From NCBI GenBank assembly GCA_947470575.1, contig CANITX010000005.1:1-45129 (forward strand): a stretch of DNA of 45,129 nucleotides, read 5' to 3'. Each line of letters starts with the position of its first letter. Position 1 is the first letter of the stretch. Made by a program: the position numbers and the translations under genes. This document shows, piece by piece, positions 6,085 to 39,421 of the stretch. This DNA is from Rhodospirillales bacterium (GTDB taxonomy: Bacteria > Pseudomonadota > Alphaproteobacteria > Rhodospirillales > CAMCUA01). Under the pieces are notes generated by a model. The model did no database searches, was not told the origin of the DNA, and saw only the letters and a list, made by a program, of their open reading frames with translations.

Positions 6085-7167
6085 TCACGCAGATAGCACA
6101 GGCGCGGCGTTCGACGGGGGCTCGAATTGCATCGATAGGGAAAACAGCTCGGTTTCTTCGGCCCGACCACGCAAGGCGGTCCTCCCGACCGAAACCGCCG
6201 TCATCCCGGCAGTAAGCTCGCAGCGCTCCAGCAATTCCCGGGATATCAGGAAGGGCTGCCCCAATTGGCGACAGGCACCGGCGATGCGCGCAGCAGCATT
6301 GACGGTATCGCCGAAATATACGATTTCACGCTTGCGGTCGCCACATTCGCCGGCGGCCACAGGGCCGCCATGCATACCACCGCGCAACTGCGGACGCACG
6401 CCGAAAGTCTTATCGTACCATGGCCCTCTCGCCTCCAGCTGCTGCTGCATCGCGAGCCAGCACCGCAGACAACGGACATCGCGCAGGCCGACCGCTAGCG
6501 GCCATGTCACCACCACCTCGTCACCGATATAACGGTGGACCTCGCCGCCATAGTCGGCGATGACATCATCAAGATCGAAGAAGACCCGGCTGATCAAGGC
6601 ATGGGCACCGTCGTCGCCGAGCCGACGGGCGATCGCCGTGGAATCCACGAGGTCGGCGAACAGGAATATCCTTTCCTCGTGCACCGCCCGGTGATAGCGC
6701 CCGACCATGAAGTTGACCAGGACGCGCGCGCCGACCAGCGTCACGACCTGCAACGCGAACTGAAACGAGAAGAAGACCGCAAACGAATAGCCGACGTCGC
6801 GCAGCAGCGTCGTGGCGTCATAGGGCACCACCGGCTGGCCGAACAGCCCGGCGATGACCGCGCGGCCGGCGAACAGACCGGCGACGATGATGACGCCCGA
6901 TACCAGCGCGCGGATCACAAGACCGACGAGAAAGGACTGGCGGCGCAGCCAGCCGCCGACCGGGCTGGGCACCACGAGCAGTACGAAACCGAACAGGCCG
7001 CCGGCGATCAGCAGGCCGTTGAGGCCGCCCTGGGCGAAGGCCCGCCAGGCCCCGTCGCCCTGCAGCAGGCCGCGGGCCGCGACATAGCCGATACCGGTGC
7101 CGCTGCCGACGAGGGCACTGATCAGCGTCAAACGCAGACGTTCGCGCGTCGCCCTGGTCAGCGCCAT
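6085..7167 (-). CDS. Membrane-anchored class III adenylate/guanylate cyclase domain protein
   Basis: N-terminal hydrophobic segments followed by FLFADLVDSTAIARRLG...HRYIGDEVVVTWP...GGPVAAGECGDRKREIVYFGDTVNAAARI. Confidence 0.88.
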   Translation of the reverse strand: MALTRATRERLRLTLISALVGSGTGIGYVAARGLLQGDGAWRAFAQGGLNGLLIAGGLFGFVLLVVPSPVGGWLRRQSFLVGLVIRALVSGVIIVAGLFAGRAVIAGLFGQPVVPYDATTLLRDVGYSFAVFFSFQFALQVVTLVGARVLVNFMVGRYHRAVHEERIFLFADLVDSTAIARRLGDDGAHALISRVFFDLDDVIADYGGEVHRYIGDEVVVTWPLAVGLRDVRCLRCWLAMQQQLEARGPWYDKTFGVRPQLRGGMHGGPVAAGECGDRKREIVYFGDTVNAAARIAGACRQLGQPFLISRELLERCELTAGMTAVSVGRTALRGRAEETELFSLSMQFEPPSNAAPVLSA

Positions 7168-9201: not shown

Positions 9202-9633
9202 TTAGCCTACGGCCTTCACCATATTGAGCCGGTTGCGGCCGTCGGCGCGGGCGTAAGTAACGCCGTCCATCAAAGCACGCACCAGATGGATACCAAGGCC
9301 GCCGACTGGACGGTCTTCGATGCCGATAGCGAAATCCGGTTCGGGCAGCTCGAGAGGGTCGAAGGCGCGACCGCTGTCTTCGAAAATGACGCTGACAACC
9401 TTGCCTAGGTGAACCAGCCGCACCACCGCATTGTGGTAGCCGGGAGGGTCAGGTGGCGGCACGCCGTCGATGCCATGGCGGACCACATTGGTCAGCAGTT
9501 CTTCAAGCACCAAGCAAAGTTGACCAACGAGTTCGGCAGGCAGACCGTGGGCGGAGCAAAAGCCGGTCACTGCTTCGCCCAACGGGCGGATGGCGTCCAG
9601 TTCCGCCCGCAGCTCGATCCGCAGTTCGCCCAT
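9202..9633 (-). CDS. ATP-binding protein, RsbW-like anti-sigma regulatory factor (GHKL/HATPase)
   Basis: LVLEELLTNVVRHG (N box), FEDSGRAFDPLELP, GGLGIHLVRALMDGVTYARADGRNRL (G box). Confidence 0.88.
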   Translation of the reverse strand: MGELRIELRAELDAIRPLGEAVTGFCSAHGLPAELVGQLCLVLEELLTNVVRHGIDGVPPPDPPGYHNAVVRLVHLGKVVSVIFEDSGRAFDPLELPEPDFAIGIEDRPVGGLGIHLVRALMDGVTYARADGRNRLNMVKAVG

Positions 9634-9789
9634 CGCCCTTCCCGATTCGCTACGCTACCGATACAAACCGTACCCCGCCAGGCAGCGGTAGCCAACCGCC
9701 ACGGGGTATAGCGGCCAGCAGAGGAAGACAGCGGCGACAGCGGCCGTTACAATGTCAAACGCGACCCTTTCACGCAGTGGGAGAAGGCC

Positions 9790-10251
9790 ATGAGGTACCG
9801 AATCGTCGGCGCGGTCATCGCCGCCCTGATCATCGCAACGCAGCCCCCGGGTCTGGCGGGCGCGGCGGACGCAGACGTCATCGGCCGGATCAAGACGGTG
9901 CAGGGGCAGGCCTTCCTCTTGCGCGGGACAGAACGAACACCGGCCACCATCGGCGGCGCCGTACAGCAGGGCGACGCAGTGGAGACCGGCGCCGACGGGG
10001 CCATCGGCATTACCTTCCGCGACAACTCGGTATTTTCCACAGGCCCCAACAGCCGGGTAGCGGTGGACGAATTCCGCTTCGATTCGCAAAATTTCCAAGG
10101 TTCGTTCCAGTCGCGCGTCAGCAAGGGCACCCTAAGCGTGGTGTCGGGCGACATCGCGCGCGGCTCACCCGAAGCGATGACCATTCGCACGCCGCACACC
10201 ATCCTTGGCGTGCGCGGCACTCGCTTTGCCGTCAGCGTCACGGAAGACTGA
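9790..10251 (+). CDS. Exported FecR-domain protein
   Basis: Signal peptide then VIGRIKTVQGQAFLLRG...VQQGDAVETGADGAIGITFRDNSVFSTGPNSRVAVDEF...MTIRTPHTILGVRGTRFAV. Confidence 0.88.
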   Translation: MRYRIVGAVIAALIIATQPPGLAGAADADVIGRIKTVQGQAFLLRGTERTPATIGGAVQQGDAVETGADGAIGITFRDNSVFSTGPNSRVAVDEFRFDSQNFQGSFQSRVSKGTLSVVSGDIARGSPEAMTIRTPHTILGVRGTRFAVSVTED

Positions 10252-10254
10252 GCC

Positions 10255-10881
10255 ATGCAAGTCATATCGACGTTCGCCGCCGCCGGACGCACCCTCCTGG
10301 CGGTCATGCTGCTCCTGGTCGGCGCCTGCGCGCAAAAGCCGCCGGTTTCCGAAAGCCTGATCGTGGTGCTGCCCGACGAGACCGGCAAGGTCGGCGCCGT
10401 TACGGTCGGCACAGGGGGCAATGCCCGCGTGCTCGACTCCGCCTATGCGACCGGCGCGGCCAACCGCGCGGGCCCACTGACGGCTGCGACGCTCAACCCC
10501 GAGGACGTCGACCGGCGGTTCGGCGCGGCGCTCGCCGCCCGGCCGATCCTACCCCGGCGCTTCACGCTTTATTTCGTGGTCGATTCGGAAACGCTGACCG
10601 AACCGTCGAAACTCGCATTCGACGAGGTTTTCGAGGACATCAAGAAGCGGCCGCATTACGAAATCGAGGTGGTCGGCCATACCGACCGGGTCCAAACCAA
10701 CGACTATAATCAGCGGCTGTCGCAGCAACGAGCCAATCAGGTACGCGGCCTCTTGCTGGCGCGCGGCATCGCGGGCGACGCCATCGTCGCCACTGGGCGT
10801 GGCGAGTTCGACTTGGCCGTGCCCACCGCCGACAACGTTCCCGAGCCGCGCAACCGGCGGGTCGAAATCACGGTCCGATGA
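10255..10881 (+). CDS. OmpA-family lipoprotein
   Basis: Lipobox LLLVGACAQ; C-terminal OmpA/peptidoglycan-binding region YEIEVVGHTDRVQTNDYNQRLSQQRANQVRGLLLARGI...RNRRVEITV. Confidence 0.9.
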   Translation: MQVISTFAAAGRTLLAVMLLLVGACAQKPPVSESLIVVLPDETGKVGAVTVGTGGNARVLDSAYATGAANRAGPLTAATLNPEDVDRRFGAALAARPILPRRFTLYFVVDSETLTEPSKLAFDEVFEDIKKRPHYEIEVVGHTDRVQTNDYNQRLSQQRANQVRGLLLARGIAGDAIVATGRGEFDLAVPTADNVPEPRNRRVEITVR

Positions 10882-10899
10882 CGCGCCGCGATTCGCTTT

Positions 10900-13008
10900 T
10901 CAACGGCCGAGATAGCGCAGCACCAGCACGGTGATATCGTCGCTGGCCGGGGCGCCGGCCGTGAAGCGGGCGACATCGTCGAGCACGGCACGGGTCACTG
11001 TCGCGGCGTCGCCGTCTGTCGGCACGCCAGCGAGCAGTGCCTCCAGTCGTTCGAAGCCATAGGCTTCGCCGGCAGCGTTTTCCGCCTCAGGAATGCCATC
11101 GGTATAGAGCACCAGGGTCTCGCCAGGGGCCAGCTTCAAGCTTTCCGCCGGATAGGGAAACTCATCGACCGTGCAGAGCGGCGGGCCGCCGATGCTCGCG
11201 ACCCGGCGCGGCGGCTGGCCGGGGCTGAGGATATAGGGCGGATCGTGGCCGGCGTTGGCGAAAGCAATCTCACCCGTACGGGTATCCAACAGTCCGGTGA
11301 AAACGGTGATGAACAGCATCGCCGGATTCTCCAGGGACACCGCGCTGTTGGTATCGGCCAGGATGGCGTCGATCGTGGTCGCGCCGTCCGGGCGCAGAGC
11401 TCGGGCCTTGCCGAGCGCCTTGGCGACGGCCATGAACAAGGCCGCCGGAACGCCTTTTCCCGAGACATCGCCGACCAGGAAGAACAAACGGTCGGCATCG
11501 ACGAAGGCATAGTCGTAGAGGTCGCCGCCCACCTCCCGGGCCGGCTCGATGGCAGCGTGCAAGTCGATCTCCGGGCGGCCGGGAAAGGCCGGGAAGGTGC
11601 GCGGCAGGATGCCCAATTGGATTTCGCGGGCCGCCGCCAGTTCGCCTTCGATGCGTTCCGCCGCAGCGCGTTCACGGGCCAGGTCTTCCTGCAAGTGGCG
11701 ACGCAGCCGCTCGGCAGCGGCCAGCGACAGCACCAACATGGCCGTGAAGATGGCAACGGTAGAGACTGCCGGCCCCGCCGCATCGATCAGCAAGCCATGC
11801 GCCGCGAAGGCATACCAAGCGCCGGCCGCCGGCAAGACCACCGCGACCAGCAGAGGTAAGGGGCTCAGGCGCGGCCGGACCCGAGGCACCACGACGATCA
11901 TGGCGATGCCGGCAAGCAGTAGGACGGCGGATTCAAGCGGCACCGCCCAACGCGGGCGGACCAACATGCTGCCGGCAAGAATGCTTTCCAAGAGCTGGGC
12001 GTGAACCTCGACACCCGGCATGTTGGCCGCGGTCGGGGTAGCGACAAAGTCGTTGATGCCCAGCGCCGTACTGCCGAGCAGCACCAGCATACCGTCCATC
12101 GCGCCGGGGGCCATGCGGCCCTCCAGCAGGTCGGCGGCGGAGACGAAACGTTCCGGCCGGTGCGGACCGTAATGCACCCAGGCCCGGCCGTCGGGATCGG
12201 TCGGTACGAACAGGTCGGCGACAATGATGCCGACCACGCCGCCAGTATCGGCCTCGACGGTGAAGCCTGCCGCCCCTGACGCGACACGCAGCATCTCGAT
12301 GCTCAAGGCCGGATAAAGCGTCCCGTCGACTGCTACGGCCAGCGGCACCCGGCGCACCATACCATCGCGTTCCGGCGGCACGCTGAGTGCTCCGTTGCCG
12401 GCGGCAACCCTGACGATCTCGTCGAGGCTGGCTAGCAGTCCGCCGTAGGACCAGACGAACGGCAGCGGGTCGCCGCCGCGGACCAGCGAAGCCGTACGTG
12501 GCGGCAGGCGTCCCGGCCGGCCAGGCGGCGGCACCGGTAGCGCCGCCATGCCAAGCACGGCCGGAAGGCGGCCCAGGCTGGCCGCGAGGCGGGTATCGTT
12601 GGACGGCAGCCGGGCGATGTGTTCGCGCAACGCCGGATCGACGTCGAGGTCGGCTTCCGATTCCAGAAGACGGTGCGGCGACAAACGATCGGGTTCTGCG
12701 AACAGGATATCGACGCCGAGCGCCAGCGGCCCTCCTTCGGCTATGGCCTCGACCAGACGGGCGGTCAGACTGCGCGGCCAGGGCCATTGGCCGAAGCGGG
12801 CAAGCGACCGTTCATCGATATCGACGATAGCTACCGGCCCCAGGCCGGGCCGCGGCCAGATCGCCTGAAACGTGTCGAACTGCCACAAGCGGACTTGGGG
12901 AAAGGGCGGCGGATCGAACAGGTGCAGTGCCAACAGCACAGCGAGGCAGAGCATGCCGAGCGGCCGGCCTGAGCCGACACGGAACCAAGCAAGCCAGCGA
13001 CCGGTCAT
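10900..13008 (-). CDS. CHASE2 sensor domain - transmembrane - SpoIIE/RsbU-type PP2C phosphatase
   Basis: N-term CHASE2-type (VAIVDIDERSLARFGQWPWPRSLTARLVEAI), TM segments, then EIQLGILPRTFPAF...REVGGDLYDYAFVDADRLFFLVGDVSGKGVPAALFMA...VLYTDGIPEAEN. Confidence 0.93.
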   Translation of the reverse strand: MTGRWLAWFRVGSGRPLGMLCLAVLLALHLFDPPPFPQVRLWQFDTFQAIWPRPGLGPVAIVDIDERSLARFGQWPWPRSLTARLVEAIAEGGPLALGVDILFAEPDRLSPHRLLESEADLDVDPALREHIARLPSNDTRLAASLGRLPAVLGMAALPVPPPGRPGRLPPRTASLVRGGDPLPFVWSYGGLLASLDEIVRVAAGNGALSVPPERDGMVRRVPLAVAVDGTLYPALSIEMLRVASGAAGFTVEADTGGVVGIIVADLFVPTDPDGRAWVHYGPHRPERFVSAADLLEGRMAPGAMDGMLVLLGSTALGINDFVATPTAANMPGVEVHAQLLESILAGSMLVRPRWAVPLESAVLLLAGIAMIVVVPRVRPRLSPLPLLVAVVLPAAGAWYAFAAHGLLIDAAGPAVSTVAIFTAMLVLSLAAAERLRRHLQEDLARERAAAERIEGELAAAREIQLGILPRTFPAFPGRPEIDLHAAIEPAREVGGDLYDYAFVDADRLFFLVGDVSGKGVPAALFMAVAKALGKARALRPDGATTIDAILADTNSAVSLENPAMLFITVFTGLLDTRTGEIAFANAGHDPPYILSPGQPPRRVASIGGPPLCTVDEFPYPAESLKLAPGETLVLYTDGIPEAENAAGEAYGFERLEALLAGVPTDGDAATVTRAVLDDVARFTAGAPASDDITVLVLRYLGR

Positions 13009-13035
13009 CGTCTCCGGCTCAGCGCATTAGCTCGT

Positions 13036-13995
13036 TCACAAGCGGATTTCCATACCGTCATAGGCGGCAAGTACCCGCAGCGGCGAGCTTTCGCGGCTGA
13101 GCTCTTCGAAGCGCACCGTTTCGTCGTGCAGGGTGGCGATGGCGCGATCGTCGGAGTTGGGATCGTGGTGAAACAGGCAAAGCGTCTTCACCCCGGCCCG
13201 GTGGCAGAGTTCGACGGCGACAATATTGCTGGAATGGCCCCAGTCTTGGCGAATGGTCAACGCATCGGCCAGGGAATACATGGTGTCGAAGATAACCACA
13301 TCGGCGCCGCGGAAAAACTCGACGAAGGCTTCCGTATGTTCCGGATTGTCGAGCTTGTGCTCTGAATCGGTGGAATAGACCACCGTCTTGCCGTCCTTTT
13401 CGAAGCGATAGCCGAAGGAATCGCCGGAATGATACTGCGGGATCGAATGGACGGTCATGCCGGCGACCTGCACCGGCATCCCCGGCGTCATGATGTCATA
13501 GACAATAGTCCCGCCGAGCTGATCGTATTCGACCGGAAAGCTGGGCGCCGCATGCTGGCGGCGCAGCGCCGCCTCGATATTGGGGTGGCAGCCGTGAATG
13601 ATCGTGCGGTGTCCGGGTACGTAGGCCGGCACGAAGAACGGGAACCCCATGATGTGGTCCCAGTGCATGTGCGACACGAAGGCATGATAGACAGGGTCCT
13701 TGCGGCGCTTCGGCTTGGCCATCGCGTAATTGCCAAATGCGCGCAAACCCGAGCCCAGGTCGCAAAAGACGAACTCATCGCTGCCGGCATCGATCTCGAC
13801 ACATGGCGAATTACCGCCGAAGGTACTACCGGTGGCGAAGTCCAACTCCAGATCGATAAAGGCGTCCGCATCGGCGTCGGTCTCGAATCTCCGCCCGCTG
13901 GCCTTGAGCAGCGCTTCGCGCAACTTCTCGCGCACGGCCGCTGCACCTAAAGGCGCCGGCAAGGAGCCTCGCGTTCCCCAGAATCTTACCAACAT
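13036..13995 (-). CDS. Metallo-beta-lactamase-fold hydrolase
   Basis: MLVRFWGTRGSLPAP...VSHMHWDHIMGFPFFVPAYVPG (HxHxDH)...YSTDSEH; MBL phosphodiesterase-like. Confidence 0.9.
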   Translation of the reverse strand: MLVRFWGTRGSLPAPLGAAAVREKLREALLKASGRRFETDADADAFIDLELDFATGSTFGGNSPCVEIDAGSDEFVFCDLGSGLRAFGNYAMAKPKRRKDPVYHAFVSHMHWDHIMGFPFFVPAYVPGHRTIIHGCHPNIEAALRRQHAAPSFPVEYDQLGGTIVYDIMTPGMPVQVAGMTVHSIPQYHSGDSFGYRFEKDGKTVVYSTDSEHKLDNPEHTEAFVEFFRGADVVIFDTMYSLADALTIRQDWGHSSNIVAVELCHRAGVKTLCLFHHDPNSDDRAIATLHDETVRFEELSRESSPLRVLAAYDGMEIRL

Positions 13996-14013
13996 GACCG
14001 TTTCCTTGCCTGG

Positions 14014-14385
14014 TCAGCCGCCCGCGTCGAAAGCTACCGCCGCATCGGCCGACATCGAGAGTAACGATGCGCGCAAATCGGCGAAGACTGGGATGACAAA
14101 ATTGAAGCGGCTGATTTCAAATATTTCACGCACGACGGGAGTCAGCGCGGCAACCGCGATCTTACCCCCGCCAGCCTTACTTTTCTTAGCGGCGACCATC
14201 AAGGTACGCAACCCCACGCTGCTGACATAATCGACCAGGCCAAAATCCAATGCCACCTTTGCCCCGCCCGGCACGTCGACCAAACCAACCAAGCGGCTCT
14301 GGAAGGCAGCCGATGCGTCCTGGTCCAAACGGCCCACCGCCTTCAACACCGTTACATCGGCCAATCGTCGTTCCTGGATTTCCAC
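14014..14385 (-). CDS. STAS-domain anti-sigma-factor antagonist
   Basis: VEIQERRLADVTVLKAVGRLDQDASAAFQSRL...VALDFGLVDYVSSVGLRTLMVAAKKSKAGGGKIAVAALTPVVREIFEIS. GTG start inferred (the longer ORF to 14463 is less STAS-like). Confidence 0.88.
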   Translation of the reverse strand: MEIQERRLADVTVLKAVGRLDQDASAAFQSRLVGLVDVPGGAKVALDFGLVDYVSSVGLRTLMVAAKKSKAGGGKIAVAALTPVVREIFEISRFNFVIPVFADLRASLLSMSADAAVAFDAGG

Positions 14386-36986: not shown

Positions 36987-39155
36987 TCAATCCTTGGCAG
37001 CAAGCCTCGCGGAAGCAGCAACCCGGGTCGCAAAAAATTCCCGCGCTTCCTCCAAATGCATCGGCGGGCAGAACAGGTTTCCCTGAACAAGATCGCATTT
37101 GACGTTGCGCAGGAATTCGCTCTGCGCTTCGGTTTCCACTCCTTCGCCGACGACCTTCAGGCCTAACCTGTGGGCCATGTCGATTACAGCCTGAGTTATC
37201 CTGGCGTCATCGGGGTTGTGTGTAATTTCGCTTAGGAATGCACGATCGATCTTGACCGAGGTGAAAAGCAGACGCTTGAGAAAGTTGAGCGGCGAATAGC
37301 CAGTTCCGAAATCGTCGATGCATAGACGCACACCATTGGCCGATAGCTCCGCCAACATATTGCGTACCCGCACCTCATCCTCCATCAACAGACCTTCCGT
37401 AAATTCCAGTTCCAGGCAACCAGGAGCAAGGCCGCTAAGGTCGAGCGCCTTGTTAACCATGGTCAGAATGCGCCCTTCGCGAAACTGCCGGCTGGAAACA
37501 TTGATGCACAGGCGTAGGCCGTTGGCTCCCTTCTCTTGCCAAGACTTGACCGCACGGCAAGCCGTATCCATCGCTCATTCGCCGATAGCGCCAATCAACC
37601 CCTTTTCCTCGGCAACCGGGATGAACCGCGCGGGCGGTACCAAACCAAGCTCGGCACTCTCCCAACACAATAAAGCCTCGATCGCAACAGGTTGCCCGGT
37701 CGCCACATCGAAGATCGGTTGATACAATATAGTGAATTCTTGTCGCTCGAGAGCCCGTCGCAGATAGGACTCAAGCCGCATTTGCTCTACAGCCCGAGCG
37801 TTGATTTCGGTCGTGAAGAACCGATAAGCATTTCGCCCCTCACCCTTCGCCCGATAAAGGGCTGCATCGGCATTTTTCAACAGAACATCCGGGGAATCCC
37901 CGTCGTCGGGGAAAACCGTGATGCCGATACTGACCTGGGCAAACATCTCCTGCCCATTGATGTTGTAGGGCACGCGAAACGCTTGCATGAACTTGCTGGC
38001 AACCACGGCGGCACTATTGCTGGATTCGATTTCCTGCAAGACAACCGTGAACTCATCGCCACCAAAGCGGGCAACCGTATCCTCGGCGCGCACGCATTCA
38101 GTCAGCCGCTGAGCCACCTGACGCAACAACTCATCCCCGGCTGCGTGACCCAGCGTGTCGTTGATGTCCTTAAAATTATCAAGGTCGAGGAACAGAACGG
38201 CGGCTGATTCTTCATCGCGCTTGGCCCGGCTGAGGACTTGATTCAACCGGTCGAGAAACAGCGTGCGGTTAGGCAAACCGGTAAGGGAATCGAAATTTGC
38301 CTGACGCAGCAAGCGGCGTTGCGCTTCGCGCAGGTCTTCCTCGGCCCGACGCCGTTCGGCAATTTCCTGGGTCAGTTCGGACGTCCGCTCGTCGACCCGC
38401 TTCTCCAGCATCGTATTAACTTCGTTAAGCGCCTCCTCCACCTGCAGTCGCTCGGCGTGCTCATGCGCGAATTGCTGCTTGCTTTCGGCCAATCGGCGCT
38501 CAGTTTCCAACTGGGCATCGTGTTGATGTCGGATGATGCCTTCAGCCCGCCTTACCACAAGAAGCAGCCCGCCATAGAAGGTGGCAGCCACCGCGGCTAG
38601 TATGGCAACAAGGTAAAGCGCCGACCGCTGGATTTTAGCGATCCCGTCGGTAGCGTCGGCTGTGATTTCGAGAACGCCTGTTACTTTTCCCGCTTTGTCA
38701 AAGCTCGGCCAATAGGTGGAAACCACATGGCGGTTGTAAACGACACCCGAAAATGTCGTCACCTCATGCTTGAAACCTAACGTACTTGCCGTTCGCCCGG
38801 TCAGCGTCCGCTTAAAAGTCGGATCGTCGCCGACCTCCGCGCTGATCTCGTCGGGAACGGTAGAGTACATCACCCGCCCCCGCGGATGGAGAACCTTGAT
38901 CTTAAGGACAGGCAGCCCATCCACCAGCATCGCCAGAGAGGACCCGAAGCTCCGGATATTTGATCCGGTTAGCAACCAATCCAGGCGGGGGCCAAGACCG
39001 TTGGCCAAAGACCTTGCCAAGGAAAGATTCTGCCCCTCGATCAGGTGAACCAGATCGCTGCGAGCATTCCACCAATACAGGTAGGATAGGCCAGAAACAG
39101 TGACGGCGAGGGCAAGCGCGCAAATGATCGAGAAGTGCCGCAACAGCCGAAACAT
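36987..39155 (-). pseudogene. Membrane GGDEF-EAL protein interrupted by an in-frame TGA
   Basis: ORF 37575..39155 (TM-periplasmic loop-TM-coiled coil-GGDEF with ARFGGDEF; EAL start IEALLCW) ends at TGA 37575-37577. The same frame continues directly as 36987..37571 with the rest of EAL (INVSSRQF, ELEFTEGLL, IDDFGTGYSPL, VKIDRAFL, GEGVETEAQ). Confidence 0.85.
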
Positions 39156-39421
39156 GCCGTAACTTCCAATGAAGGATGCAACGTCAACCGCCACAGACAT
39201 CCATGGCAACGAATCTTACCATGGCATGCAGCTTGCCCCCGTGCAACCGGGCGACGCCTCCTCCTGATATCGATCTCCCCAAGCCGATATCGGAAAAGGC
39301 TTTTTTGCCAATGCGCCGTCGATTGTCGGCAGGGGCTTTCACCAACGACACCGCCTAAGAGGCTGGGCATCGGGCATCCATTGGCTTAATAGTTGAGGGC
39401 GCATTCAACGGCCATGGGAAA

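Follow-up and report, generated by a model that had tools for sequence, protein, structure and literature searches.

We examined a window comprising an entire 45-kb contig (CANITX010000005.1, 45,129 nucleotides) of the 3.43-Mb draft genome of a Rhodospirillales bacterium, in which six genes between positions 9202 and 14385 form a putative partner-switch cassette. The UPF0262, his and murA genes of the window suggest an alphaproteobacterial origin. All six are complete and each has a curated Pfam match, in line with the original prediction made for this stretch. Three lie together on the minus strand: an anti-anti-sigma-like STAS-domain switch protein (14014–14385; Pfam STAS, E = 1e-13; TIGR00377 at 51.8 bits, just under its cut-off), a metallo-β-lactamase (MBL)-fold metallo-hydrolase that we propose as the phosphodiesterase-like output enzyme (13036–13995; Lactamase_B_2, E = 2e-19), and a 702-residue CHASE2-SpoIIE/PP2C membrane phosphatase (10900–13008; CHASE2, E = 4e-53; SpoIIE, E = 1e-43, 149.6 bits). 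Converging on the phosphatase gene from the plus strand are genes for an exported FecR-domain protein with a hydrophobic, signal-peptide-like N-terminus (9790–10251; FecR, E = 4e-10) and an OmpA-family lipoprotein with the lipobox LVGAC that is predicted to bind peptidoglycan (10255–10881; OmpA, E = 7e-18). The sixth gene, on the minus strand and divergent from FecR, encodes an RsbW-like HATPase, the predicted STAS kinase (9202–9633; HATPase_c_2, E = 2.7e-21). A GTG start gives a STAS protein of 123 residues and an in-frame TTG farther upstream one of 149; STAS and MBL share one reading frame and are separated by a single stop codon. The predicted topology of the phosphatase, with one N-terminal transmembrane segment and about three more after CHASE2, fits a periplasmic CHASE2 domain, transmembrane helices and a cytoplasmic phosphatase domain; the same check of the window proteins found no transmembrane segments in STAS, MBL or the HATPase.

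Among relatives, the catalytic and phosphorylation-site residues show at least 97% conservation, so the cassette proteins look functional rather than decayed. These are the metal-binding aspartates of SpoIIE (D496, D514, D637, D690 and D691), the predicted STAS phospho-acceptor Ser56 (87 sequences), which lies within DYVSSVGLR two residues ahead of a conserved glycine, the HATPase N-box residues E45 and N49 together with D86, G111 and G114 (64 sequences), and the MBL HxHxDH motif with H189, D210, H254, H276 and H277. By sequence, the locus thus has what an RsbU/V/W-type switch requires: a SpoIIE/PP2C phosphatase with its aspartates, a STAS protein with its serine and a HATPase with N and G boxes. 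The Pfam matches and intact active sites bear out the earlier statement that all three partner-switch roles lie near one another, interleaved with the FecR, OmpA and MBL genes, and we infer that phosphorylation-dependent partner exchange may operate here.

The original prediction also implied that these genes should recur together in related genomes. For a survey that started from the MBL, we took 80 of 540 reported MBL relatives with their flanks, one genome per species, plus others from whole-genome searches, and identified the neighbouring genes with profiles built from the cassette. We counted 74 loci, the window included, whose sequence reached at least 0.7 kb upstream of the MBL start and at least 5.5 kb beyond it. 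The complete six-gene set was present in 56 of the 74, with the order STAS> MBL> CHASE2-PP2C> <OmpA <FecR HATPase> near-universal among complete loci. STAS was found in 70 loci, always upstream on the MBL strand (70/70), and CHASE2-PP2C in 68, always downstream on that strand (68/68). OmpA and FecR lay on the opposite strand in 57 of the 58 and 58 of the 59 loci that have them, respectively, and the HATPase was linked in 59 of the 74 loci, on the MBL strand in 57 of these. Judged by record titles, the cassette occurs in Alpha-, Beta- and Gammaproteobacteria; a few other labels (Klebsiella, Verrucomicrobia, Rokubacteria) look out of place, come from draft bins and were not trusted.

To avoid the circularity of an MBL query, we ran a second search from the phosphatase, using order and class genome samples that span the window's own class only. 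It returned 13 relatives matching near full length. The MBL gene adjoins the phosphatase gene in all 12 whose contig reaches that side, and STAS is present in all 11 testable relatives. The remaining CHASE2 matches in those genomes were mostly to the CHASE2 half alone, and the ones examined were mainly adenylate/guanylate cyclases. The predicted linkage is therefore conserved, which rules out a chance neighbourhood and supports, at the level of sequence comparison, the view that the six genes make up one functional neighbourhood.

Not all six genes are equally constant. STAS, MBL and the phosphatase form an invariant core, and FecR, OmpA and the HATPase are variable: five loci carry the core alone and three more have it with a cyclase, and in a few others a single one of FecR, OmpA and the HATPase is missing. 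RsbW-like HATPases were nevertheless found in all 10 cassette genomes searched, including 6 without a linked copy. In one genome (G426) two contigs share the parts: the core triad is on L157, and L170 carries an OmpA-FecR pair and, divergent from it, a HATPase that is the sole PF13581 match in that genome; the cassette is split there into two coherent sub-units, both kept. At another locus (L045, ~4160), where the gene order is as in the window, the N-terminal parts of FecR and the HATPase are both missing at one junction, which is probably an assembly collapse or a deletion in a draft genome. We also observed a tandem pair of STAS reading frames upstream of one cassette MBL gene (L155 4237–5869, genome G278). 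The genome of L048 has a second partner-switch cluster (G000:C48, 14994–18085) with MlaE-like permease genes, STAS, an RsbW-like HATPase and GAF-SpoIIE.

Genomic position or shared descent could keep genes together without joint function. The window and two other alphaproteobacterial loci (L141 and L160) share a murA-hisG-hisD neighbourhood, so vertical inheritance accounts for some of the synteny, and the locus set includes close relatives. However, 46 non-redundant complete cassettes were left when more than 15% MBL divergence was required, gene order is constant across three classes while the surrounding genes differ, and the split cassette of G426 consists of two intact sub-units. The linkage data largely refute this explanation, and we consider it very improbable.

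If the genes do work together, what does the switch control? It had been noted that no sigma factor was in view, and we found none among the window proteins scanned. Likewise, when 261 proteins encoded in the flanks of relatives were scanned twice against Pfam, no sigma factor or effector recurred among the 25 commonest families listed, only lineage-specific neighbours. The linked sigma factor of a sigma-controlling partner switch is thus absent from the scanned window proteins and from the recurrent flank families. Several observations point instead to the MBL. In one locus (L081) STAS and MBL are naturally fused into a 473-residue protein encoded beside a divergent HATPase gene. A sample of 399 genomes confirmed no further fusions; both new MBL matches in it adjoin STAS and CHASE2-PP2C. 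In a mirror-tree analysis, a crude statistic, the partial correlation between STAS and MBL controlling for the other genes was 0.34±0.06, equal to that between the CHASE2 and SpoIIE halves of one polypeptide (0.35±0.06).

The MBL gene also persists where the other genes are gone. In a Duganella locus (L124) both flanks are the same as in L127, L131 and L138, down to the stretch that precedes STAS there. The locus has lost STAS, the phosphatase, OmpA, FecR and the HATPase, and its genome has no full-length phosphatase homologue elsewhere. Its MBL gene is intact and under selection, with nonsynonymous divergence (dN) of ~0.08, synonymous divergence (dS) of ~0.7 and dN/dS of ~0.12. Two further loci (L074 and L123) keep MBL without the other five genes, and their downstream side matches a cassette locus (L112). 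In this gammaproteobacterial group a small protein of ~130 residues with no Pfam match directly follows MBL (L074 9993–10394, L123 9993–10466, L112 ~10079–10468) and is retained with it in the loci that lack the other cassette genes. That the enzyme outlives its putative regulators is easier to reconcile with an output than with a scaffold. The non-sigma output that had been tentatively assigned to the MBL is accordingly favoured by the fusion and by the MBL-only lineages, and its interaction with STAS and its substrate are best treated as predictions. Taken together, the sequence comparisons suggest that the switch controls the MBL hydrolase rather than a sigma factor.

A conventional partner switch acting on a target in trans (a sigma factor, an anti-sigma factor or another protein) would assign the MBL an accessory role, either as a housekeeping hydrolase or as an enzyme modifying the signal upstream. 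RsbW-like HATPases classically bind sigma factors, and in several genomes the HATPase is encoded apart from the core. There are precedents for distant targets, such as HsbA acting on FlgM (PMC6482189); the target of SypA is not known (PMC8256260). Against such a target stand the fusion of STAS to MBL, the retention of the MBL once the other components are lost, and the fact that the MBL is never missing beside phosphatase-first matches that extend that far. We consider a target in trans unlikely.

The next question is what kind of enzyme the MBL is. Its AlphaFold2 model is confident (pLDDT 90.9), and the nearest folds in the PDB are RNase Z (1y44, the top match), B. subtilis YhfI, PhnP, yeast PDE1 and the phage-type Apyc1. 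A PDB sequence search with an MBL profile retrieved chiefly RNase Z-like and YhfI-like hydrolases, with no decisive relative. The cassette MBL has the MBL fold, HxHxDH and the remaining metal ligands of atypical class II cyclic-nucleotide phosphodiesterases. YhfI prefers cAMP and cGMP (PMC9117128), and Rv1339, a cyclic-nucleotide phosphodiesterase, belongs to the same Pfam family as the cassette MBL (PMC9293780). Cyclases occur nearby in some cases. In the window, a membrane class III adenylate/guanylate cyclase (6085–7167, minus strand) lies 2 kb past the HATPase, between murA and hisG; elsewhere STAS is preceded at 18 bp by a CHASE2-cyclase (L047), and L085 has a dCache-cyclase on the downstream side. 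From the predicted fold and these neighbours, the MBL is most likely a phosphodiesterase, with a cyclic nucleotide as the leading guess for its substrate. A GGDEF protein farther along the window (37575–39209, minus strand), whose C-terminal EAL match is limited to the initial 61 of the 236 profile positions, could be a GGDEF-EAL protein that is truncated or frameshifted.

A distinct MBL paralogue, 30–34% identical, has a CHASE2-adenylate/guanylate cyclase within ~7 kb in five loci from genomes of the window's taxonomic order (L049, L051, L052, L058 and L059). It lacks, in the four copies aligned, a helical insert found in cassette MBLs, and several of these loci have OmpA-like genes resembling MotB beside a MotA-like gene. 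This paralogue could act as a phosphodiesterase partner of the cyclase. The insert itself comprises ~37 extra residues (~19–57 in the window protein), is largely helical in the AlphaFold2 model and is missing from stand-alone MBL paralogues (30–35% identity). It is tempting to speculate that it is a docking element for STAS. Substitutions peculiar to MBLs left without the switch are not concentrated there, however, so this docking site stays a guess.

The MBL could be the output and yet act on RNA or on a metabolite, as an RNase Z-like enzyme or a small-molecule hydrolase, so that the switch would govern RNA or metabolite turnover and not a second messenger of the cyclic-nucleotide type. RNase Z heads the list of fold matches and RNase Z profiles match weakly. 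The phosphodiesterase-like folds (YhfI, PhnP, PDE1 and Apyc1) score nearly equal to it, though, cyclases adjoin some cassettes, and the distant MBL paralogue is found near CHASE2-cyclases. We regard a non-nucleotide substrate as possible and somewhat doubtful.

The prediction that CHASE2, FecR and OmpA form an envelope-sensing front end held in part. CHASE2 and OmpA distances co-vary in the mirror-tree analysis, and at one locus (L054) a similar FecR/OmpA pair is divergent from a CHASE2-histidine kinase. The BiofilmReg operon of Burkholderia encodes a LysM-FecR protein with a CHASE2 histidine kinase and a response regulator (PMC5192318), and a Sinorhizobium CHASE2 cyclase pathway requires the outer-membrane protein NsrA (PMC13001267). 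With these precedents, a CHASE2 receptor that faces the envelope and has exported partners is an established arrangement. The three proteins behave as a set, and their role in sensing, proposed by analogy, may be to monitor envelope or surface status.

We therefore favour, at slightly better than even confidence, a single six-gene envelope-sensing partner-switch cassette that regulates an MBL-fold hydrolase, most likely a phosphodiesterase. In such a cassette, the exported FecR protein and the peptidoglycan-binding OmpA lipoprotein would relay the state of the envelope or surface to the phosphatase through its periplasmic CHASE2 domain. The cytoplasmic RsbW-like HATPase would phosphorylate STAS on Ser56 and the CHASE2-PP2C phosphatase would strip the phosphate off. 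The phosphorylation state of STAS would select between the HATPase and the MBL hydrolase as binding partners, and STAS binding would turn the hydrolase, which possibly acts on a cyclic nucleotide, up or down. A fuller version, in which this is a widespread and hitherto undescribed transenvelope system with a CHASE2/FecR/OmpA sensor, a partner switch and, as its direct effector, a second-messenger-degrading MBL phosphodiesterase whose insert docks STAS, we put forward only tentatively.

Several results weigh against the six-gene regulatory cassette. FecR, OmpA and the HATPase are not indispensable, because each is absent from some loci, and the phosphatase-first test covers a single class. The HATPase-STAS partial correlation is near zero (0.05±0.07), which is awkward for a kinase and its substrate. 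AlphaFold2 folded both domains of the STAS-MBL fusion and gave a linker pLDDT below 50 and no confident domain-domain pose. RNase Z is as near to the MBL in fold as the phosphodiesterases are, and cyclases adjoin just a handful of cassettes. The MBL reaches 56.1 bits against the NF041851 profile for atypical class II cyclic-nucleotide phosphodiesterases (cut-off 400) and 55 bits against the RNase Z profile TIGR02651 (cut-off 292.95); both scores are far under the cut-offs, so we filed it in neither family. The proposed interactions and activities, including the direction of control, are read from sequences and structural models.

Nevertheless, the cassette is real and widespread, with a probable MBL-hydrolase output, and as far as the open-access full-text literature shows it is undescribed: we found no published account of the six genes there. 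The outputs of Gram-negative partner switches are often unknown, and we know of few ligands for CHASE2. Sensor parts, switch and candidate enzyme output are here encoded together in ~5 kb, in culturable genera that include Duganella, Rugamonas, Sphingomonas and Novosphingobium. The CHASE2 signal and the direct targets of STAS become testable in so compact a cassette, all the more so as one strain, Duganella sp. OV510, carries a natural deletion of the regulators.

Compared with RsbU/RsbV/RsbW (SpoIIE/SpoIIAA/SpoIIAB), the cassette has the same PP2C phosphatase, STAS protein with conserved serine and HATPase kinase, with active sites intact. It differs in the absence of a sigma factor from the neighbouring proteins scanned, in a STAS gene that is operon-paired and once fused with MBL, and in a CHASE2 sensor with FecR and OmpA partners. 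The front end resembles that of BiofilmReg (PMC5192318), where exported FecR and a peptidoglycan-binding module stand beside a CHASE2 receptor; the output there is a histidine kinase and response regulator, whereas the cassette has a SpoIIE output domain and keeps FecR and OmpA as separate proteins. The MBL shares the Lactamase_B_2 fold, HxHxDH and the remaining metal ligands with YhfI, Rv1339 and C. glutamicum CpdA (NF041851; PMC9293780, PMC9117128), but it falls far under that family's cut-off, carries the helical insert and travels with STAS. By analogy, the nearest functional precedents would be SiaC-SiaD and HsbA-HsbD of P. aeruginosa, whose SiaABCD and HsbRA/HsbD partner switches control a diguanylate cyclase that makes c-di-GMP (PMC7647112, PMC6482189). 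In both, as proposed for STAS, a small protein is thought to act, depending on its phosphorylation state, on a second-messenger enzyme, whose gene is close by in the case of SiaD and at another site in the case of HsbD. The sensor architecture differs, SiaC is phosphorylated on threonine, and the output of the cassette would be an MBL hydrolase instead of a GGDEF cyclase. In the fuller, tentative version of our reading, this partner switch would govern the breakdown, not the synthesis, of a cyclic nucleotide.

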